From: Streptomyces sp. NBC_01465
Lineage (GTDB): Bacteria > Actinomycetota > Actinomycetes > Streptomycetales > Streptomycetaceae
Length of the DNA: 64,000 nt
Assembly: GCF_036227325.1 (NCBI RefSeq)
Contig: NZ_CP109467.1
Location: 4,588,001 to 4,652,000 of the forward strand
Reading direction: 5' to 3'
Numbering within the stretch: the first letter of the stretch is position 1; each line of letters begins with the position of its first letter. Both the position numbers and the translations under genes were made by a program. This document shows, piece by piece, positions 7,753 to 64,000 of the stretch. Below the pieces are notes generated by a model. That model searched no databases. It had not been told where the DNA came from and worked only from the letters and a program-made list of their open reading frames with translations.

Positions 7753-8886
7753 ATGCCGGACTTTCAGGTCGAGCCGGGGGCGATCGACGGCTTCTCGAAG
7801 CTCGTGGCGCGCGCCGCGGAGAGCAGCACCAAGGCGGTCTCGTACGTGGACCAGGCCAAGATCGACAGAGCGGGCGGCGGCCACCTCTTCGACATGGTCG
7901 CGGGCGACCACGACCACTATGTGAGCGAGGCCAAGAAGGCGCTGGGCAAGGCGCAGAAGGTCCTCGACTCCTCGGGCCGCGAACTGGCCAAGGCGGCCAC
8001 GTACTACCGCTCGACGGACCACGACTCGGCGGCGAAGATCGACGCCACCTACCCGGGGTCCAAGGTGCCGGGCGGCCAGTCGGACGGCGGCGGCGCGGAC
8101 GACTTCTCCGACTCGAGCGACGCCGCGGACGTACTGAAGGCGCCGAGCGACCCCAGCAACCCGATCGTCAAGTACGCGATGGGGCACGTCGACGAGTACA
8201 AGATGAGCCCGGTCCAGAAGACCCTCGGCTCCATCCTCGACCTGGGAAGCCCCTCGGCCATGGCGGTGGAGGCCTCGAAGCTCCTCTTCGACTTCGACCC
8301 CTTCGGCGAGGTGACGAACTGGATCGTCGGGGACTGGAACAACTACAACGACTGCGCGGAGATCTGGAGCAATCTCGGCTCGTTCTGCGAATCGGTGTCC
8401 GCGAATGTGAAGAAGGGCACCAGCAACGTCGGCATCACCTGGGACGGAAACGCGGCGGACGCCGCGACCGTCTATTTCGACGAGTTCATGCAGAAGCTCG
8501 GCGAGTTCAAGGAGACGTTCGAGTCGCTTCGGCAGTGTTATGCCGAAGGGGCCCAACTGGCTTTCCAGTTCGCCGAGTTCCTGAAGTCCTTCATCGTGAT
8601 GTTCTCGGACATGCTGGTGATCTGGCTGGTGAACCTGGCGGCGGCGCAGGCCGTCAACCTGATCCCGGTCGGCGGCCAGGCGGCATCGATCGCCATGTTC
8701 GCGCTGTGCGCCGCGGAAGCGATCCGGATCATGCAGCTGTGGGCCGAGGCGGCGAAGGCGTTCGACACGATGGCGAGCGCCCTGAGCGCACTCGCCCTGG
8801 CCATGTCGGCGGCGGTCAACGGTTTCTCGGCGGCGGACGGTTTTCCCGAGGTGGACTCGGCCGGCTACGACCACAGGGCGGTCTGA
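7753..8886 (+). CDS. WXG100/ESX-like helical protein with C-terminal hydrophobic segment
   Basis: The 377-aa protein has no signal peptide. Residues ~1-90 are helical (AIDGFSKLVARAAESS, AKKALGKAQKVLDSSGRELA), a charged Asp/Ser linker follows, and a second helical module contains a W-D-G turn (NVGITWDGNAADAATVYF) typical of WXG100/ESX secreted proteins. Residues ~275-350 are hydrophobic (MFSDMLVIWLVNLAAAQAVN, AASIAMFALCAAEAIRIM), which could insert in a membrane. This resembles long type VII substrates, but no EccC or other secretion gene lies in the window. The start is at ATG 7753 after GGGGGGATGAG. Confidence 0.55.
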   Translation: MPDFQVEPGAIDGFSKLVARAAESSTKAVSYVDQAKIDRAGGGHLFDMVAGDHDHYVSEAKKALGKAQKVLDSSGRELAKAATYYRSTDHDSAAKIDATYPGSKVPGGQSDGGGADDFSDSSDAADVLKAPSDPSNPIVKYAMGHVDEYKMSPVQKTLGSILDLGSPSAMAVEASKLLFDFDPFGEVTNWIVGDWNNYNDCAEIWSNLGSFCESVSANVKKGTSNVGITWDGNAADAATVYFDEFMQKLGEFKETFESLRQCYAEGAQLAFQFAEFLKSFIVMFSDMLVIWLVNLAAAQAVNLIPVGGQAASIAMFALCAAEAIRIMQLWAEAAKAFDTMASALSALALAMSAAVNGFSAADGFPEVDSAGYDHRAV

Positions 8887-9159
8887 ATGCAGTTCATGGA
8901 CGTCAGCGACCTCGATCTCTGGCTCACGCGCGTCCGTAACCTCACCGTCGTAGCCGCAGTCGCCTATCCGGCGCTCGGTGTCTTCCTGGCCGTGGACGAG
9001 GGCTGGCGCTGGAGTTTCGTGGCGTTGTTCCTTTTGTCGCCGGTGGCGGCCGTCCTGGGAATCCGCGCTCAGCGCGAGATCCGCGGCGGCCTGTCGGCGG
9101 CGGCGATGGCGCTGGCCATCGCGCCCCTCCCTTTGATGGCCGCGGCGGAAGCCCTCTAG
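8887..9159 (+). CDS. Small membrane protein
   Basis: This 90-aa protein has three predicted membrane segments (VVAAVAYPALGVFLAV, FVALFLLSPVAAVLGI, AAAMALAIAPLPLMAA). It begins two bases after the stop of the WXG-like gene, so it is almost certainly co-transcribed and coupled to it. No family is recognised. The gene runs into a hairpin terminator at 9178-9203. Confidence 0.65.
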   Translation: MQFMDVSDLDLWLTRVRNLTVVAAVAYPALGVFLAVDEGWRWSFVALFLLSPVAAVLGIRAQREIRGGLSAAAMALAIAPLPLMAAAEAL

Positions 9160-55815: not shown

Positions 55816-56784
55816 TCAGCGCGGGACGACCAGCGAGGTCACTGTCGCGGTGAACGGCACCTGGTCGCCCTGACGGGCGGTGATGCGCACGGTCTCGTGG
55901 CCGGGCGCGGAGGCGGCGGCCGGCTCGGCCTCGATCCAGCACGGGGCGTCGAACTCGACGAAGCGCGTGAACTTGGCGTCGATGCCGGTCATGACGGTCT
56001 GCCGGGGGTGCAGCGTGGAGTGGGCCGCCTGCCGGGCCGCCTCCAGGAGCACCATGCCGGGGATGTGGTCGACCGCGTGGTCGAACAGGACGGGGTGCGC
56101 CACGTCGACGCGCAGCTGCCAGTGGCGGTCCGATCTCCCCGGCGCGAGCACGACGTCCTGCGGGTTGATCCGGCCTGCCTGATCGGGGGCGATCGGCGCC
56201 GGCAGCGGGACGGCCTGGTCCATCGCGCGGGCGGCGTCGCAGCGCGGACCGCGCAGTCGCCGGTAGATCGCGGGAGCCTGGTTGGCGAACCGGGTCTCGG
56301 TGACCCCCATGCGCTGCGTGCCCCGCATCGCCGTGGCCCGCAGCGTCATACCGCCGAGGCGCCCTGCGCGCCGGACCACATCGACGCCCGTCAGGTGCAA
56401 GTCGGAGTCCGCGGGCAGCCTTCCGTAGAGAAGCGCTTCGGGGGAGACCGTGCAGCGGAAGTAGTCCCATATCTGACGGTGGTCCATGGGTGCCCCGTAG
56501 CCGACGTGGCTGACCAGCGGGATGGCCTGGCGGACACTCTCGGCGAAGAGCATCGGGTCGTACAGGCCGTGCGCCGGGGTGTAGAAACTGTGCGACCGCG
56601 GCCATTGGGCAGGAGCGACGAAGGAGTCCTCGCCGTTCTCCTGCCAGCCGCAGAGCAGGACTTCGGCCTGGGCGGCCTTGTGCACGTACTGGCGAGGGAT
56701 GGCCATCAGCAGCGGGGACGGCGAGGCGATGACTGCCTTGAGGGGAGACTCGGGACGAGCGGTTTCAACGGTGGTGGCAGTCAC
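55816..56784 (-). CDS. AfsA/ScbA-family gamma-butyrolactone biosynthesis protein
   Basis: This 322-aa protein has two tandem hotdog-like AfsA domains. The first contains QYVHKAAQAEVLLCGWQ and PAQWPRSHSFYTPAHGLYDP, the second RVDVAHPVLFDHAVDHIPGM with LLEAARQAAH. AfsA-type enzymes join a beta-ketoacyl chain to dihydroxyacetone phosphate, the first step to butyrolactone hormones. It is divergent from an ArpA-type receptor across 106 bp holding a shared operator, the standard signalling pair layout. The compound made cannot be predicted. Confidence 0.9.
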   Translation of the reverse strand: MTATTVETARPESPLKAVIASPSPLLMAIPRQYVHKAAQAEVLLCGWQENGEDSFVAPAQWPRSHSFYTPAHGLYDPMLFAESVRQAIPLVSHVGYGAPMDHRQIWDYFRCTVSPEALLYGRLPADSDLHLTGVDVVRRAGRLGGMTLRATAMRGTQRMGVTETRFANQAPAIYRRLRGPRCDAARAMDQAVPLPAPIAPDQAGRINPQDVVLAPGRSDRHWQLRVDVAHPVLFDHAVDHIPGMVLLEAARQAAHSTLHPRQTVMTGIDAKFTRFVEFDAPCWIEAEPAAASAPGHETVRITARQGDQVPFTATVTSLVVPR

Positions 56785-56869: not shown

Positions 56870-56890
56870 TTGTTTGTCGAGGGAGGAAGC

Positions 56891-57517
56891 ATGGCACGCC
56901 CGCAGCAGGACCGTGCGGTAAAGACGAGGGCGGCACTCGTCAGGGCCGCCGCAGAGGAGTTTGACCTGCACGGATACTCGGGAACGAGTACAACCAAGAT
57001 CGTGAAGCGGGCCAGTTCCACTATGGGAGCTCTTTACTTTCACTTTGACTCCAAGGACGACCTGGCCCGCGCCGTCATGGCGGAACAGGCGGCCGACCTC
57101 CCGGAGTTGGCACCCGGGAGCGGGCTGCAGCACCTCATCGACCTCACCCTCGCCCTGGCGCGGGAGCTGCAGCGAAACGTCCTGTTCCGTGCCGGTGTGC
57201 AACTGGCCGTCGAGCAGGGCGCCTTCGGGCTGCAGGACGATGCCGCCTACCAGCTGTGGATCAGCAACTTCAAGGACGAGCTCATCGCCGCCCAGGCGCT
57301 CGGTGAGCTGCGCGCGGGCGTGGACCCCGCGAGTTTCGCCCGCGTCCTCGTCGGCTCCTACAGCGGAACGCAGCTGTTGTCCCAGATCAGTTCGGGGCGC
57401 ACGGATCTGCCGGAGCGCATCGCGGAGCTGTGGTCGTACTTCCTGCCCGCCGTTGCCGCGCCGGAGATCATCGATGGCCTGGACGTCACGGGCAGTACGC
57501 CGGAGTCGGCCGGATGA
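56891..57517 (+). CDS. ArpA/ScbR-family butyrolactone receptor (TetR fold)
   Basis: The 208-aa TetR-family regulator starts at ATG 56891 after GGGAGGAAG. Its HTH (TSTTKIVKRASSTMGALYFH FDSKDDLARAVM, read continuously) is the ArpA/ScbR pattern. The ligand domain follows to PEIIDGLDVTG. It is divergent from the AfsA homologue and overlaps the epimerase gene by 4 nt, so the receptor and the reductase-like enzyme are co-translated. Autorepression through the operator at 56856-56869 is expected. Confidence 0.87.
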   Translation: MARPQQDRAVKTRAALVRAAAEEFDLHGYSGTSTTKIVKRASSTMGALYFHFDSKDDLARAVMAEQAADLPELAPGSGLQHLIDLTLALARELQRNVLFRAGVQLAVEQGAFGLQDDAAYQLWISNFKDELIAAQALGELRAGVDPASFARVLVGSYSGTQLLSQISSGRTDLPERIAELWSYFLPAVAAPEIIDGLDVTGSTPESAG

Positions 57518-58524
57518 GACCGTGGACCGTCGCCCTCACCGGGGCCACGGGATTCATCGGCTCCGCCGTACTGCGTGAGCTGGCCGTCCGGGAGGCCCCT
57601 GGCGGCCGGCCGGTGCGGGTGCGCGCACTGGTGCGCCGGGCGGACGTCGTGCTGCCGGGCGGGGGAGCGGTGGAGGCCGTCCGCGCCGACATCACCGATA
57701 TCACCGACATCGGCGACATGGCCGGCCTGGCGTCGCTGACGAGGTGCCTCACGGGAGTTGACGCTCTCGTCCATGCCGTCTCGTACGTCGGCAAGGACGA
57801 GGAGCAGTGCGAGGCGGTGAATCTGCGGGGCACCACCGCGGTCATGGCGGCGGCCCGGGCCGCAGGGGTGGGGCGGATCACCCACCTGTCGACGGCCGCC
57901 GTCTACGGCGCGGGTCCGCACCGCGCCGTGGACGTCGACGGCGTCGTCCCCGCGCCGGTCTCCGCGGCAAGCCGCAGCCGGCTCGCCGCGGAGGGCCCCG
58001 CCCTGGAAGCGGGGGCGCTCGTGCTGCGGCCGAACCTTGTGCTCGGCGAGGGTGACCGCTGGGTCGTCCCGGCGTTCGCCGAACTCGCCGAGCGGGTCGG
58101 GCCCGAGTGGCTCGGCGGCACGGGGCTGCAGTCCCTCGTCGACGTGGGCGACCTGGCCCGCCTCGTCGCGGTCTCCGTGACCGCCGCCGGCGCGGTGCGG
58201 GGTGTGCACCACGCCGTGCACCCGGTCCCGGTGTCCACCGGACGTCTCAGGGCCGCGCTGAGCGGTCACGGCCTGGTGGCGCCTGCCACGGGAAGCAGCG
58301 ACTGGGAGCAGTGCCGCGCGCTTCTGGAGCGGACCCAAGGCCGGTACGGGGAGCGGCACTTGGAGCTGCTCGCGCGGGACCATCACTACCTGGGCGACCG
58401 TATCTGGAAGCTGCTTGCCGCAGATCCCGGTCCCGGCCCGCTGGTCCGGCTCGACCGGGCGGCGGCCTGGTATCGCGGGGCGCTTTCGCTGAACCGTCAG
58501 GACGCGCTGACGGGGCTGTCCTGA
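57514..58524 (+). CDS. NAD(P)-dependent epimerase/dehydratase, probable butyrolactone-pathway reductase
   Basis: The 336-aa extended SDR protein has the nucleotide motif TGATGFIGSAVLREL, HLSTAAVYGAG in the active-site region and VLRPNLVLGEGDRW. The classical YxxxK is replaced by AASRSRLAAE around the expected position, so catalysis may be unusual. JadW2-type reductases in butyrolactone loci have this fold, and coupling to the receptor gene supports such a role. A short D-I-T tandem repeat (DITDITDIGDM) is present. It overlaps the convergent TetR gene by 28 bp. Confidence 0.78.
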   Translation: MRPWTVALTGATGFIGSAVLRELAVREAPGGRPVRVRALVRRADVVLPGGGAVEAVRADITDITDIGDMAGLASLTRCLTGVDALVHAVSYVGKDEEQCEAVNLRGTTAVMAAARAAGVGRITHLSTAAVYGAGPHRAVDVDGVVPAPVSAASRSRLAAEGPALEAGALVLRPNLVLGEGDRWVVPAFAELAERVGPEWLGGTGLQSLVDVGDLARLVAVSVTAAGAVRGVHHAVHPVPVSTGRLRAALSGHGLVAPATGSSDWEQCRALLERTQGRYGERHLELLARDHHYLGDRIWKLLAADPGPGPLVRLDRAAAWYRGALSLNRQDALTGLS

Positions 58525-59123
58525 GACGCGCCGATGCCCTGAAGGGCGGTCTGCCACAGCTCGGCGAAGTGCTCCTCCACCGTGGGTGAGGGCAGGAGTG
58601 CTCCGCCGAGCTGCGGGAGCAGTCCCGCTTCCACGGCGGCCACCAGACTGCCCACCATGAGAGCGGCCGACTCCGGCCGGGCGCCGGGGCGCAGGAGGTC
58701 GAGGACCTCCGCCTGGTGCAGCCGGGTGCGTACGAGAGGCAGCCAGCTGCCCCGCCAGTCCATGGCGAGGGGTGGCTGTTCACGGGAGAGTCTGGCGGCC
58801 GCTCGTGCCACGGCGTCCGCGCTCAGCAACTCGGCGAGCGCCCCGGTGATTTTGCCGACGGACTGCAGGGGCCCCTGCCCCTTCCGGTCGGCCTCGTCGA
58901 CCCTGGCCTGCGTGGCCCGGATCCCGGCGGTGCACACGGCCTGCGCCAGGGATGCCTTGCTGGGGTAGTGGAAGGTGAGCGCTCCCATGGTCGCGCCGGC
59001 GGCCTTGCAGACGCGGGAGAGCGACGTGCCGTCGTAACCGTGCAGTGCGAACTCCGCCGCCGCGCTCCGCACGAGCCGTTCGCGGGTCAGCGCCCCTCGT
59101 ACCTGCCCGGTGTGCTCCGTCAT
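58497..59123 (-). CDS. Second TetR-family regulator (pseudo-receptor type)
   Basis: The 208-aa TetR protein has the HTH TSLSRVCKAAGATMGALTFH and a ligand domain with RLSREQPPLAMDWRGSWLPL. It is similar in length and HTH to the ArpA-type receptor but less canonical, which fits a pseudo-receptor that answers to pathway products. It is divergent from the IS701-like gene across 257 bp and convergent with, and overlapping, the epimerase gene. Confidence 0.82.
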   Translation of the reverse strand: MTEHTGQVRGALTRERLVRSAAAEFALHGYDGTSLSRVCKAAGATMGALTFHYPSKASLAQAVCTAGIRATQARVDEADRKGQGPLQSVGKITGALAELLSADAVARAAARLSREQPPLAMDWRGSWLPLVRTRLHQAEVLDLLRPGARPESAALMVGSLVAAVEAGLLPQLGGALLPSPTVEEHFAELWQTALQGIGASQDSPVSAS

Positions 59124-59325
59124 GCCGTTCTTCCCTCCTGCCGCAGTGCCCCCGTACGCGACCTGATCCCATCTGGCTTCCCTGCATCCTGTGGCATCGC
59201 GTTCCGAGAGGTCAGGCCAACTTGCCTAAGCCGTATACGAGTTCTTGGCGGGGTCGGGTCCGCGGCGCCGCCTCGCGGCAACGTGCCAAAGTCGCTCGGT
59301 CTCGCGGGGGTCCCTGGACCGCAAA

Positions 59326-59339
59326 AGAGAGTACTCTCT
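59326..59339. promoter_or_regulatory. Second receptor-type operator
   Basis: AGAGAGTACTCTCT is a perfect 14-bp palindrome matching the operator at 56856-56869 at 11 of 14 bases. A TATGTT -10-like box begins at its last base, 37 bp before the IS701-like gene start. Confidence 0.6.
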
Positions 59340-59380
59340 ATGTTTGTGGCTGGAAGAACGGACCGAGAAGAGTCAGGGGA

Positions 59381-60592
59381 ATGGCTGTGCGCGACATCGC
59401 CGACATCGCCGACATCCGCCGTCACGCGCGTGGCCCGAGGGGCAGCGATGAACTCCTCCAGGAGTTCGTGGGCCGTCTCTTCGGTGACCTGCCGCGAGCA
59501 GACCAACTCAACCGTGCACGCGAGTACGTGACGGGCCTTCTCGTGACGCCGGGGAAGAAGTCGCTGCGCCGCATGGCCGCCGCGGTCTCCGAGTCCCCGC
59601 ACACGTCCCAGGCCCTGCAGCAGTTCCTCAACTCCAGCCCGTGGGCCTGGCACCCGGTGCGGCGCGCACTCGCCGGCTGGACCGAGGAGCACCGTCCCAC
59701 CCTCACCTGGAGCCTGGGCCTCGCCGTTCTCCCCAAGCGCGGCGACCACTCTGCGGGTGTCCACCGGCGCTTCGTCCAGGACGCCGACCGTACGGTCAAC
59801 TGCCAGCTGGGCGTGGGACTCTTCCTGGGTTCGGGCGACGACTGCATCCCCGTCGACTGGCGCCTCGTGCTGCCCGGGCACTGGCAGACCGACAGCGCAC
59901 GGCGCGCGGCCGTCCGGATCCCCGAGGGCGAGCCGACTCCCGCGGAGGGCGCCTGCGCCCTCGACCTGGTGCGCACACAGACCGCGGCCACCGGCCGCAC
60001 GGACGTGCCGCTCGTCGCCGACCTCACGCAGCTTCCGCACGACGCGTCGTTCCTGCCCGGTCTCGCCGCGCTCGGTACGGGGTTCGTCGTGCGGATCCCC
60101 GCGAGCACCGCCCTGCGCCTGCCGGCCGGGCCGGGAAGGCCGGTCCCCGCGCGCCAACTGCTGCACAGCGTCACGGCCGTGACGGGCATCGGCTCCGGGG
60201 TCGTCCCCGACGCCGGCGGGCGCGGCCACTCACGGGTGCGGACCTGCGCGGTGCGCCTGGGGCACGCTGCGCCGCCCTCGCCGCAGCGGCCCTGCGTGCT
60301 GATCGTCGAGTACCCGGCGGGCGAGCACAGCTCCCCGCGGTACTACGTCACCGACCTCACGCACCACCGGCCCGGCGAGATCCTCCGGCTCGCGGGCGCG
60401 GCGTACCGCACCCGGGAAGCCGTACGGGAGATGCAGGACCACTACGGGCTGCTGGACTACGAGGGCCGCTCCTATCCGGGCTGGCACCGCCACATGACTC
60501 TGGTGTCGGCGGCCCATGCCTTCCGGCAGCTGTCCGGCCGGGAGCCGGGCGCCGAGATGCCCGGCCGGGCGGGGACGGCGAAAGCCGCCTGA
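59381..60592 (+). CDS. IS701-type DDE transposase-like protein, apparently domesticated
   Basis: The 403-aa protein has the IS701/DDE-4 style layout: a helical start (LLQEFVGRLFGDLPRADQLN), QALQQFLNSSPWAWHPVRRA, the first Asp in IPVDWRLVLPG, a second in LVADLTQLP, and a C-terminal YRTREAVREMQDHYGLLDYE with candidate Glu, then YPGWHRHMTLVSAAH. No terminal inverted repeats are visible, and it sits inside a signalling locus behind a receptor-type operator. This suggests a resident gene rather than an insertion sequence. Its start carries a DIADIADI repeat. The present role is unknown. Confidence 0.7.
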   Translation: MAVRDIADIADIRRHARGPRGSDELLQEFVGRLFGDLPRADQLNRAREYVTGLLVTPGKKSLRRMAAAVSESPHTSQALQQFLNSSPWAWHPVRRALAGWTEEHRPTLTWSLGLAVLPKRGDHSAGVHRRFVQDADRTVNCQLGVGLFLGSGDDCIPVDWRLVLPGHWQTDSARRAAVRIPEGEPTPAEGACALDLVRTQTAATGRTDVPLVADLTQLPHDASFLPGLAALGTGFVVRIPASTALRLPAGPGRPVPARQLLHSVTAVTGIGSGVVPDAGGRGHSRVRTCAVRLGHAAPPSPQRPCVLIVEYPAGEHSSPRYYVTDLTHHRPGEILRLAGAAYRTREAVREMQDHYGLLDYEGRSYPGWHRHMTLVSAAHAFRQLSGREPGAEMPGRAGTAKAA

Positions 60593-61073: not shown

Positions 61074-61089
61074 CTGCACCCAAGGGCCC
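61074..61089. promoter_or_regulatory. Degenerate TGCACCC box
   Basis: TGCACCCAAGGGCCCA matches the palindromic box at 61110-61125 at 12 of 16 bases and lies 36 bp before it, centre to centre. Confidence 0.35.
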
Positions 61090-61109
61090 ATGGGCGGCGG
61101 ACGCGGCTC

Positions 61110-61125
61110 TGCACCCTAGGGTGCA
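61110..61125. promoter_or_regulatory. TGCACCC-TA-GGGTGCA activator-type box before the UbiA gene
   Basis: This is a perfect 16-bp palindrome. After it come ATT and 36 further bases, then a TACCTT -10 box (61165-61170), then 6 nt, then GTG 61177. The box centre is 59.5 bp before the start codon, exactly as at 63096-63111. Confidence 0.7.
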
Positions 61126-61176
61126 ATTACGGGGCTCGGCCGCCCGGTTGGGCTCCGTAACTCGTACCTTGCTGAT

Positions 61177-62118
61177 GTGGCCGACATCAGCAGCGCGATC
61201 CTCATCCCTCAGACACCGACCCGCATCCGGCTGCGCCCGCGCCATGCACGTCTCGCGCTGCTCGAGGCGCGCCCCGTCGTGCAGGTCGTCTTCCTCATGC
61301 GGTACGTCATAGGCGTCGCGGCCTCGTCCGCGCACCACCTCCTGGCGCACCCGGTGCGGCTGGTCGCGGGGGTGATCTCCTGGTGGCTGGCCGTGGTCGC
61401 CGCCTACCTGATCAACGGCGTGATGGACGTCAAGGAGGACCGGGCCAACGGGTCCGACCGGCCCATCGCCAGGGGCGATCTGCCCGAGCGGGTGGCAGCC
61501 CTCCTCACCGGGGGCGCCGCCGTGGGGGCGCTCGCCCTCGCGGCCTTCGTCCCCGGCCTCCTCGTCTGGGTGGCGGCGTTCCTGCTGCTCGGCTGGGTCT
61601 ACTCGGCTCCGCCCCTGCCCGCCAAGCGCTGGAGCACGGCGTGCGCGGTGGTGGTGTTCGGGCTCGGATGGACCTCGTTCGCCGGCGGAGCGGCCACGAC
61701 GGGCGGCCGGCTCAGCACCGCGGGCCTGGTGTTCGCCACCGTGATGAGTGCCTGGATGGCCCTGGTGGGGTCAGTGGTCAAGGACCTGAGCGACGTCGAC
61801 GGGGATGCCACCGGGGGACGCCGTACGGTGGCCGTGCGCTACGGGGCTCACCTGGCACGCGCGCTCGGTGCGACCGGAGCACTCCTGGTCGGCGTGGGCG
61901 CAGTGCTCTCCTGGCTGCTCTGGGCCCCGTACATGCTGCCTGCCATGGCCCCCGTCGCGATCGGCGCCGTCTGTGTGGTCGTCCAGATCGTGCGCACCAC
62001 CCGGATCGCGGGCGGGGACAGGCGGATGCGCCGCGGCGCCTACCGCGTGTTCATGCGCACCCAGTACGCGGCCAACATCGCCATGCTGTTCGTGCTGGCC
62101 TTCCACGGAGCGGCGTGA
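61177..62118 (+). CDS. UbiA-family prenyltransferase
   Basis: The 313-aa membrane protein has about eight helices and both Asp-rich prenyl-diphosphate motifs: LINGVMDVKEDRANGSDRPI (N-x-x-x-D-x-x-x-D type) and KDLSDVDGDATGGRRTVAV. It should transfer a prenyl chain to an aromatic or quinone-like acceptor. It starts at GTG 61177 with no Shine-Dalgarno, and a -10 box ends 6 nt upstream, so the message is probably leaderless. It is preceded by a TGCACCC box and closed by a strong hairpin. Confidence 0.88.
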   Translation: MADISSAILIPQTPTRIRLRPRHARLALLEARPVVQVVFLMRYVIGVAASSAHHLLAHPVRLVAGVISWWLAVVAAYLINGVMDVKEDRANGSDRPIARGDLPERVAALLTGGAAVGALALAAFVPGLLVWVAAFLLLGWVYSAPPLPAKRWSTACAVVVFGLGWTSFAGGAATTGGRLSTAGLVFATVMSAWMALVGSVVKDLSDVDGDATGGRRTVAVRYGAHLARALGATGALLVGVGAVLSWLLWAPYMLPAMAPVAIGAVCVVVQIVRTTRIAGGDRRMRRGAYRVFMRTQYAANIAMLFVLAFHGAA

Positions 62119-62139
62119 GGGCGGTGGGAACACGGCGAA

Positions 62140-62186
62140 GTCCCGGCGGGAGCAGGCGGCGTGAGTGCCGCCGCTCCCACCGGGAC
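62140..62186. terminator. Long hairpin terminator between convergent genes
   Basis: GTCCCGGCGGGAGC (62140-62153) pairs with GCTCCCACCGGGAC (62173-62186) with one wobble, and inside GGCGGC pairs with GCCGCC around GTGAGT. This makes a ~20-bp stem. Confidence 0.8.
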
Positions 62187-62219
62187 CGGGTTCGTGTGCC
62201 ACCGCCGAGGCGGAACGGA

Positions 62220-62903
62220 TCAGACGCGTCCGAAGGCCTTGTTGACCGCGTCGATACGGGAGCCGGCCTGCAACTTCCCGTAGATGTTGCAGAGATGGCG
62301 CTTCACCGTGGCGGTCTCGATGCCGAGCTCCCGGGCGATCTGGACGTTGGTCCGCGCCAGAGCGACCCGTTCCAGGATCTCCCTCTCCCGCCGCGACAAC
62401 TCGGAGTGCTCCGCGGTCTGCCCCGTACCCGGGGAGGCGGGTGCACGTACGCGCGACGACTGCGCGGCGACGGCGTCGTATCCGCGAGCGCCCGCGTAGA
62501 GCCGTTGGCCCGCACTGGTCCGGAAGACGGTGCTGACCAGCAGTAGCGCGGCGGTGCGCCGTGCCGACGCCTCGTACTGCACGGCGGTGCGCAGGGCGGG
62601 CTGCAGCGCACTCCACAGGACGTCCACGGCGCGCACCGACTCCGCCACCGCGATGCCCTGCTGGGCGCGATCGGTCCCGACCTGGTGCGAGTAGCTCCGG
62701 GCGTCGGACGGCTCCGGCAGCGGCTGACCCGCCAGTGCCGCGATGCAGTCCTCCACGATCGCCTGCGCCTGGTCACGGCATCTGGGCCAGGCCTCAGGAT
62801 GCGTCACCAGCGGACTGCGGACCGTGCGCAGGGTGTACTGGTAGGTGCGGATGATGTCGGGAAGCGCGCTTCTCAGAAACGCTCCCGCCGCCGGATAGTG
62901 CAT
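62220..62903 (-). CDS. LuxR-type transcriptional regulator
   Basis: The 227-aa protein has a C-terminal LuxR/NarL HTH (LSRREREILERVALARTNVQ, IARELGIETATVKRHLCNIY). Its N-terminal helical domain (LPDIIRTYQYTLRTVRSPLV, WPRCRDQAQAIVEDCIAALA) is found in Streptomyces regulators of secondary metabolism and has no receiver Asp motif. It lies between two genes with identical TGCACCC promoters, so it is the obvious candidate activator. Inverted TTGCC/GGCAA motifs lie in its own upstream region. Confidence 0.85.
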   Translation of the reverse strand: MHYPAAGAFLRSALPDIIRTYQYTLRTVRSPLVTHPEAWPRCRDQAQAIVEDCIAALAGQPLPEPSDARSYSHQVGTDRAQQGIAVAESVRAVDVLWSALQPALRTAVQYEASARRTAALLLVSTVFRTSAGQRLYAGARGYDAVAAQSSRVRAPASPGTGQTAEHSELSRREREILERVALARTNVQIARELGIETATVKRHLCNIYGKLQAGSRIDAVNKAFGRV

Positions 62904-62984
62904 GTTTCCCTCCCTTGCTCTCCTTCAACGAAGGAGCGGCTGTACGTCCCAAGCTAGCCAAGGGGGCGGCTGTTTCCCCGTGCT

Positions 62985-63041
62985 ACTTGCCGAAATCCGG
63001 ATGAGTTCCCGGACGGACAATCCGCACCTGCTTTGGCAAGT
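62985..63041. promoter_or_regulatory. Inverted TTGCC/GGCAA motifs upstream of the LuxR gene
   Basis: ACTTGCCGAA (62985-62994) and TTTGGCAAGT (63032-63041) are inverted copies with one mismatch, 37 bp apart. A further TTTGCC follows the second copy, making a local GGCAA-N7-TTTGCC dyad. They may serve the LuxR gene promoter. The regulator is unknown. Confidence 0.4.
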
Positions 63042-63095
63042 TCCCCTTTGCCGGTACGGGTGCGGTCTGCCTGCCGGATGTGATGTTCAACTCGC

Positions 63096-63111
63096 TGCAC
63101 CCTTGGGTGCA
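63096..63111. promoter_or_regulatory. TGCACCC-TT-GGGTGCA activator-type box before the thioesterase gene
   Basis: This 16-bp palindrome differs from 61110-61125 only in the central base. ATT follows in both. The -10 box TAATCT (63151-63156) lies 39 bp after the box and 6 nt before GTG 63163, the same spacing as at the UbiA gene. Confidence 0.7.
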
Positions 63112-63162
63112 ATTGGTCCTCCGGCGGCCGGTGCAGAGCCGGGCTCGACCTAATCTCCATTC

Positions 63163-63606
63163 GTGAGCACACACTCGGCAATGGAACTGGAAGGCACCCG
63201 GATCGGGAGGCCGTCATCGGTCGAAGTCGCCCTCAGGTGGGGCGATGTGGATTCCTACGGTCACGTCAACAATTGCGAGATCGTACGGATCATCGAGGAA
63301 GCCCGTATGCGTTGGCTCATGTCGAGCGGCGTCTTCGACGGAGAGACCGCAGTGGTCGCGGCCCATGACATCGGATATCTCAGGCCGCTTCAGTACTCGT
63401 TGGAGCCGGTCCCTGTAGAGGTGTGGACGTCGAACGTCCGGCGTTCCAGCTTCGAGTTCAATTTTCAGCTCCTCGACGCGTCGCGGAGAGTCAGCGTCAA
63501 AGCCGTCAGCCGGATGGTGATGTTCGACCTCACCACGCAGGAGAGCTACCGCATCGGCCCGGAGTTCCGCGCGTACCTGGAGGAATTCTCCGGCGAACGC
63601 CTGTGA
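63163..63606 (+). CDS. Acyl-CoA thioesterase-like hotdog protein (4HBT family)
   Basis: The 147-aa single-hotdog protein has the catalytic-region motif RWGDVDSYGHVNNCEIVRII, where the Asp is the usual 4HBT nucleophile or base, and EEARMRWL after it. It hydrolyses acyl thioesters; the substrate is unknown. GTG 63163 has no Shine-Dalgarno and a -10 box 6 nt upstream, so a leaderless transcript is likely. It precedes the serine hydrolase gene by ~50 bp and probably shares a message with it. Confidence 0.85.
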   Translation: MSTHSAMELEGTRIGRPSSVEVALRWGDVDSYGHVNNCEIVRIIEEARMRWLMSSGVFDGETAVVAAHDIGYLRPLQYSLEPVPVEVWTSNVRRSSFEFNFQLLDASRRVSVKAVSRMVMFDLTTQESYRIGPEFRAYLEEFSGERL

Positions 63607-63658: not shown

Positions 63659-64000
63659 ATGCAGCTCGACACCAAGCGGCTTTCCGCCCTCGGCGACTAT
63701 TTCGACCGACTGGTCCTCGACGGGCAGATATCCGGCTGGACGGGCATGGTCTCCCAGCACGGTGAGGTGGCGTACGCGTCGGCCGGCGGCCTGGCGAACA
63801 TCGCCGACGGCGTCCCGATGAAGACGGACAGCATCTTCCGCGCGTGGTCGCTGAGCAAGGCGATGACCTCGGTCGCCTTCATGACCCTGGTGGAGAAGGG
63901 CCTGATCGCGCTGAGCGACCCGGTTGCCGACTACCTCCCCTCCTACGCCGACCTGCGGGTCTACCGCGCCGGCATGGCCGAGTCGCCCATCACCGAGGGG
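63659..64000 (+). CDS. Serine hydrolase / beta-lactamase-family protein (truncated by window end)
   Basis: Only the first 114 residues are inside the window (MQLDTKRLSALGDYFDRLVL, WTGMVSQHGEVAYASAGG, the SxxK nucleophile motif in FRAWSLSKAMTSVAFM, then ALSDPVADYLPSYA). This is the class C beta-lactamase/esterase fold (EstB, LovD-like), without a signal peptide, so a cytosolic esterase or acyltransferase is more likely than a cell-wall enzyme. It follows the thioesterase gene on the same strand. The gene continues past 64000. Confidence 0.85.
   Translation, partial: MQLDTKRLSALGDYFDRLVLDGQISGWTGMVSQHGEVAYASAGGLANIADGVPMKTDSIFRAWSLSKAMTSVAFMTLVEKGLIALSDPVADYLPSYADLRVYRAGMAESPITEG

Follow-up and report, generated by a model that had tools for sequence, protein, structure and literature searches.

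How are the first genes of an uncharacterised biosynthetic cluster switched on when their promoters offer little beyond a -10 element? The question is raised by a locus near the end of a 64,000-nucleotide stretch of Streptomyces sp. NBC_01465 (contig NZ_CP109467.1, positions 4,588,001 to 4,652,000, or G000:C1:4588001-4652000 in our numbering; hereafter the window, in whose coordinates positions are given), part of a genome of 9.14 Mb. Two copies of a 16-bp palindromic box stand there on the forward strand, exact and at the places claimed in a preliminary description of this DNA: TGCACCCTAGGGTGCA at 61110..61125, before a gene for a UbiA-family prenyltransferase (61177..62118, forward; Pfam UbiA, 94.9 bits), and TGCACCCTTGGGTGCA at 63096..63111, before a gene for a 4HBT-type thioesterase (63163..63606, forward; Pfam 4HBT_2, 62.4 bits) that opens the downstream cluster. 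Between them, on the reverse strand and convergent with UbiA, lies the gene for a LuxR/NarL-type regulator (62220..62903; Pfam GerE, PF00196, 54.2 bits against a cutoff of 23.5, and structure models). From the sequence comparisons below we consider it likely that this protein is a cluster-situated one-component regulator that binds the palindrome and activates the -10-only promoters of UbiA and of the downstream operon.

The two promoters share one layout. The predicted -10 elements, TACCTT (61165..61170, forward) and TAATCT (63151..63156, forward), each lie 39 nt after the box and 6 nt before a GTG start codon (61177 and 63163), and no -35 match above two of six positions was found at either. 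Re-measurement gave the same 6 nt from TAnnnT to GTG and the same 59.5 bp from box centre to GTG that had been reported for both genes. The reported 39 bp between box and TAnnnT also stand for both, but the ATT that had been placed ahead of them is counted within the 39 nt, and it is not kept in the promoters of relatives. Neither the UbiA nor the thioesterase open reading frame has an in-frame ATG, GTG or TTG further upstream, and both mRNAs are predicted to be leaderless. TAnnnT is the common -10 sequence of S. coelicolor, present at 80.4% of 3,570 starts, and leaderless mRNAs arise there from 21% of primary starts (PMC4895711). If TAnnnT occupies positions -12 to -7, the GTGs of the source genome would stand at +1 and the box centre at -59.5 or, with the shorter spacer of some relatives, at -49.5.

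The exact box is not scattered over the source genome or its relatives, a scan of which had been proposed. The pattern TGCACCCWWGGGTGCA occurs twice in the source genome, both times at this locus, and a reversed-pattern control not once; with up to two mismatches box and control both give seven sites, so that only exact sites are informative, and none of the four imperfect off-locus sites has a TAnnnT within 70 nt on either side. Three overlapping genome scans (100, 392 and 249 genomes) covered 638 genomes, G000 (the source) to G637, and six of these hold the exact box: there are two copies per genome in G000, G151, G282 and G564, and a single copy in G145 and in G449. In the former four a close LuxR relative is present, with both boxes at its locus; in G151, G282 and G564 the two copies there are the only ones. 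Among the 392 Streptomyces genomes, the exact box was found in three of the four with a close LuxR (E < 1e-110) and in one of the 388 others (Fisher p 1.6e-6); in the 249-genome family set it was found in two of the six LuxR carriers detected and in one of the 243 others, among which a deeper search picked up a weak LuxR match in G471, a member of the same genus as G490. All LuxR counts are lower bounds, with 7-150 candidates scored per genome. The reversed control matched in one of the 392 genomes (G152), and chance is therefore expected to supply one or two stray exact sites.

At the carrier loci the distance from box to TAnnnT is fixed within a genome. It is 39 nt at both promoters of G000 and G151, where exact boxes precede UbiA and the thioesterase, and 29 nt at both promoters of G282 and G564, where they precede UbiA and a beta-lactamase-like gene; the two values are about one helical turn apart. 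Before UbiA of G361 and G548 it is 28 and 30 nt. Each of these ten promoters has a single TAnnnT within the 110 nt after the box, and none has a -35 match above three of six positions. A TAnnnT offset shared by both promoters was observed in all four two-promoter genomes; in 200,000 composition shuffles it arose in two of the four once, and in three or four never. The observation is far from chance. A stronger point than the p values is that box and spacing have been kept where much of the flanking DNA diverged: nine of ten promoter pairs have the same letter at 15-16 of the 16 box positions (13 of 16 in G361/G548), while over the next 26 nt the two promoters of one genome agree at 8-13 positions and the orthologous promoters of G282 and G564 at 17-19. 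That the LuxR protein encoded between the boxes (62220-62903) is the candidate to bind them, as had been proposed, is supported by this pattern, in which the exact box tracks close LuxR relatives and the spacing is fixed within each genome.

The suggestion that these are leaderless promoters held in part. In the UbiA promoters of G000, G151, G282, G564, G361 and G548 and of six D-cycloserine-type loci described below, the start codon follows the -10 element by 6-7 nt, and absence of a leader is predicted for both genes of the source and for the UbiA genes of relatives. The second boxed promoter of relatives falls outside this prediction: behind it, the beta-lactamase-like genes of G282 and G564 have a leader, and the thioesterase gene of G151 lies about 200 nt downstream. 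By eye, the GTG behind that second G151 box starts a short frame of some 26 codons (L022 around 8770-9030), ahead of the thioesterase gene.

A weaker copy of the box, TGCACCCAAGGGCCCA (61075..61090, forward), lies 35 bp upstream of the primary UbiA box, and its position weight matrix (PWM) score of 16.0 is the third best in the 64 kb. The preliminary description had placed its start at 61074 instead of 61075; the copy itself recurs upstream of UbiA in several relatives, at 35 bp in G282 (score 10.3) and 46 bp in G564 (10.9). For comparison, random 260-bp pieces lack any site above 1.8 in 95% of cases, in a background that includes the true boxes in its top quantiles and was used at the 95% level only; sites scoring at least 10 number 19 of 314,158, true boxes included. 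At the D-cycloserine-type loci of G388, G304 and G117 the upstream copy outscores the proximal site, with 17.6, 11.2 and 11.2 against 6.3 at a distance of 34 bp; the distance is also 34 bp in G602 and G594, where the upstream copy scores 3.8 and 4.5. No weaker copy was found near the UbiA box of G151 or G401. Because comparable copies stand upstream of the UbiA boxes of relatives, the third copy is probably real, though not universal.

The candidate regulator has a C-terminal GerE helix-turn-helix (HTH) in Pfam, as do 19 of the 19 relatives scanned. Among the Pfam families listed (for the relatives, 25 of 49 families), no phospho-receiver domain was matched for the source protein or its relatives, which sets it apart from typical NarL/FixJ response regulators, and neither an acyl-homoserine-lactone-type autoinducer-binding domain nor a PAS domain was matched. 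Structure models predict an all-helical N-terminal domain (residues 1-150) with a globin-like fold, at a Z score within the range in which the tool warns about helical bundles, and a linker to the HTH that is modelled at low confidence. The conserved proximal His of haem globins was not found, no His column exceeding five of 13 sequences, and the sensor would apparently be non-haem. In the sensor domain Trp39, Cys42, Cys53 and Trp97 are invariant in 13 of 13 relatives (residues 39-97; 62613-62789 in the window), and they could form a ligand or redox site. In a protein search 29 relatives scored E 4e-57 or better, with an empty range from there to 1e-10; the family must be wider than these 29, because the search missed the 42%-identical members from D-cycloserine-type loci. 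Named homologues of LuxR and UbiA are mostly from Streptomyces. The Rhodococcus fascians D188 plasmid (NZ_CP015236.1, NC_021080.1) is listed as carrying a LuxR homologue of 40% identity.

LuxR and UbiA travel together. When 20 genes of the source locus were searched, only these two had relatives in all 13 loci, and in all 13 LuxR adjoins UbiA and converges on it (in G151 UbiA is split over two contigs, with its end beside LuxR and its start and box on the other contig). LuxR distances and UbiA distances are correlated across the loci (r 0.97; reached in 0 of 5000 permutations). No further carriers came from relatives of G388, a second genus draw or the genus of G548, and a genome-contig scan with the single LuxR protein gave only two Microbacterium HTH matches. 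Around the pair the clusters differ: four loci (G000, G151, G282, G564) are of a ketosynthase (KS) type, three (G361, G548, G490) of a cupin/isomerase/monooxygenase type and six (G401, G117, G388, G304, G602, G594) of the D-cycloserine type, in which arginase-like, CysK-like, MetX-like, DcsG and EamA-like transporter genes lie beside the pair (L023, L024, L025, L026, L040, L041; DcsG of G388, 535 bits against a cutoff of 360). These six loci have a diverged proximal box, TACGCCGATGGTTGTA (TACGCCCATGGTTGTA in G401). In the alignment, their LuxR proteins have a His in the recognition helix where those of the KS clusters have Cys, Ser or Asn, a swap that would fit altered half-sites.

We propose that both boxes serve as operators for the LuxR-type protein whose gene lies between them, a one-component regulator that would combine a predicted globin-fold, apparently non-haem sensor with a NarL/GerE-type HTH. 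A LuxR dimer would bind the 16-bp palindrome and most likely recruit RNA polymerase to a promoter that has only a -10 element, the box lying on one face of the helix near -59.5 when the spacer is 39 nt and near -49.5 when it is 29 nt; a role as activator would fit the lack of a -35 element and a box at about -60 or -50. LuxR would thereby switch on UbiA, whose transcript would start at or beside its GTG, and the downstream biosynthetic operon, whose first gene is the thioesterase in the source and the beta-lactamase-like gene in G282 and G564. In this scheme the boxes, their spacing and conservation, the co-occurrence with LuxR and the order of the genes are observed, and we infer the binding by LuxR, activation over repression, the transcription starts and any ligand. 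The thioesterase box is upstream of LuxR too, 193 bp from its divergently oriented start, and since in G000 and G151 it lies between the divergent LuxR and thioesterase genes, it could act on luxR as well.

Several observations weigh against this proposal. The Fisher and permutation values overstate it, because one homologous cluster is common to the four two-box genomes, which are therefore not independent, and the parallel LuxR and UbiA distances show co-inheritance, not binding. In G361 and G548 the second, divergently facing box has no TAnnnT within 110 nt; G282 and G564 have no box, even at up to three mismatches, just upstream of LuxR; and G490, where LuxR and UbiA are both present, has no box scoring above 0.1. 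Box and TAnnnT are 24 nt apart in five of the D-cycloserine-type loci and 23 nt in that of G304, out of helical phase with 29 and 39. The scan for other regulators in the stretches from relatives covered nine further neighbouring proteins, in none of which a DNA-binding domain was found. Finally, G145 has an exact box (L027:1501-1516) and no LuxR match at E 1e-30 with 7 candidates scored per genome; in one orientation a TAnnnT follows this box by 28 nt, the next ATG or GTG is 84 nt away and the local GC content is 53%. This box may be chance in locally AT-richer DNA or the target of something else; it was kept in consideration because its 28 nt equals the spacing of G361. The single box of G449 (L061:1501-1516), a genome in which no LuxR match was found with 11 candidates scored per genome, has a TAnnnT at 20 nt in one orientation. 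Neither site matches the 29/39 geometry exactly, and both have AT at the box centre where the four carriers have TA or TT/AA.

Regulators with a ligand domain and a single component often act as repressors, and all of the present evidence bears on the site and leaves the sign aside, so LuxR might bind the boxes and hold UbiA and the operon silent until a ligand releases it. We regard this as unlikely: the box lies upstream of the -10 element, at about -60 or -50, and does not cover it, and promoters that lack a -35 element would suit an activator. Nor does the evidence speak much for an outright coincidence or a recent promoter duplication devoid of regulatory meaning, which the presence of two copies within 2 kb might suggest and which we consider extremely improbable. 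The flanks of the two source promoters match at 7 of 40, 14 of 40 and 8 of 26 positions, a divergence on which duplication was rejected; the pattern is also seen at another spacing in G282 and G564, and the shuffles fail to give it.

The boxes might instead belong to another protein, either one of the nearby ScbR-like TetR receptors or a regulator encoded elsewhere, for example BldM, and this we hold to be quite improbable. Two ScbR-type genes do lie 2-5 kb upstream, the BldM site is a 16-bp palindrome too, TCACcCgnncGgGTGA (PMC4125116), and G145 combines an exact box and a TAnnnT at 28 nt with no detected LuxR. But neither ScbR-like gene has a relative in the stretches from related genomes, and an ScbR-type site was rejected on that ground; in a hand alignment the box matches 4 of the 10 firm (capital-letter) positions of the BldM consensus, on which a BldM site was rejected; and a wide-acting regulator is hardly compatible with just two exact sites, at one locus, in each of four genomes.

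Our proposed LuxR operator system resembles several known ones in part. PAS-LuxR regulators of the PimM type are likewise linked to Streptomyces clusters and pair a LuxR-type HTH with a 16-bp palindromic operator with central WW (CTVGGGAWWTCCCBAG; PMC9774167), but here Pfam matched no PAS domain, a globin-like domain is predicted and the operator sequence, by eye, differs; moreover, the PimM site is described in the -35 region, whereas the present box lies at about -60 or -50, with two exact sites per genome. NarL-type BldM, with its 16-bp palindromic site, is called an orphan atypical response regulator (PMC4125116); it is developmental, with a regulon defined by chromatin immunoprecipitation, and for the present protein no receiver domain was matched. 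Compared with non-haem globin sensors of the RsbR/pXO1-118 type and the N-terminal domain of MabR, the predicted sensor is joined to a LuxR/GerE HTH, and its identity to the pXO chains is 6-11%. RevU of the reveromycin cluster is another cluster-linked Streptomyces LuxR-family regulator, whose sites, however, were sought by the lux-box CTG-N10-CAG, unlike this palindrome (PMC7311520). Among the papers listed in searches of an open-licence library, none was found to describe this box, the LuxR-UbiA pair or a regulator that joins a globin domain to a LuxR-type HTH.

A testable pair of regulator and operator, probably with just two target promoters per genome, would provide a means to control the uncharacterised cluster, and the shift of the box by about one turn between relatives amounts to a natural experiment in how activators are spaced at promoters with only a -10 element. 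As the pair lies beside D-cycloserine-type genes in six of 13 loci, it may also bear on the control of a medically used antibiotic. A further, doubtful reading is that LuxR and UbiA form a portable signalling module, in which UbiA would make a prenylated or lipid-like signal and LuxR would sense it through the globin-fold domain, placed in at least three cluster types (KS with chain length factor (CLF), cupin/monooxygenase and D-cycloserine-type). If true, this would amount to a type of hormone circuit that we have not seen described for Streptomyces.

The source cluster lies mostly beyond the window. The thioesterase gene is followed by one for a beta-lactamase-like serine hydrolase (63659..64000, forward, on to 64864 outside the window) and by genes for a major facilitator superfamily transporter, a KSIII, a flavin-dependent (FAD) monooxygenase, an acyl carrier protein, a KS and a CLF-like protein; AfsA-like, haloacid dehalogenase (HAD), ketoreductase, two FabA-like (one below cutoff), acyltransferase and carboxyltransferase genes also belong to it. 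The KS (L008:10969-12228) scores 185 bits with the cispentacin AmcF model (below its cutoff of 325) and 361 with FabF (below 494). The AfsA-like gene inside the KS/CLF cluster (71337-72287 on the window scale; L008:13337-14287; 137 bits, cutoff 200) is the second AfsA/ScbA-like gene here, besides the ScbA-like one named below; the HAD gene comes after it, and this combination suggests a butenolide- or furan-forming step. Upstream of the boxes is a gamma-butyrolactone set with an ScbA-like gene (55816-56784), an ScbR-like receptor gene (56870-57517) and an NAD epimerase gene (57430-58524), then a second ScbR-like TetR gene (58497-59123) below the model cutoff; three of these neighbouring butyrolactone genes, including both ScbR-like TetR genes, have no relative at E 1e-4 in the 13 stretches from relatives. 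An IS701-type transposase gene (59201-60592) adjoins the locus, and a relative of it (L031:1557-2348) is found beside the UbiA promoter on the corresponding G151 contig.

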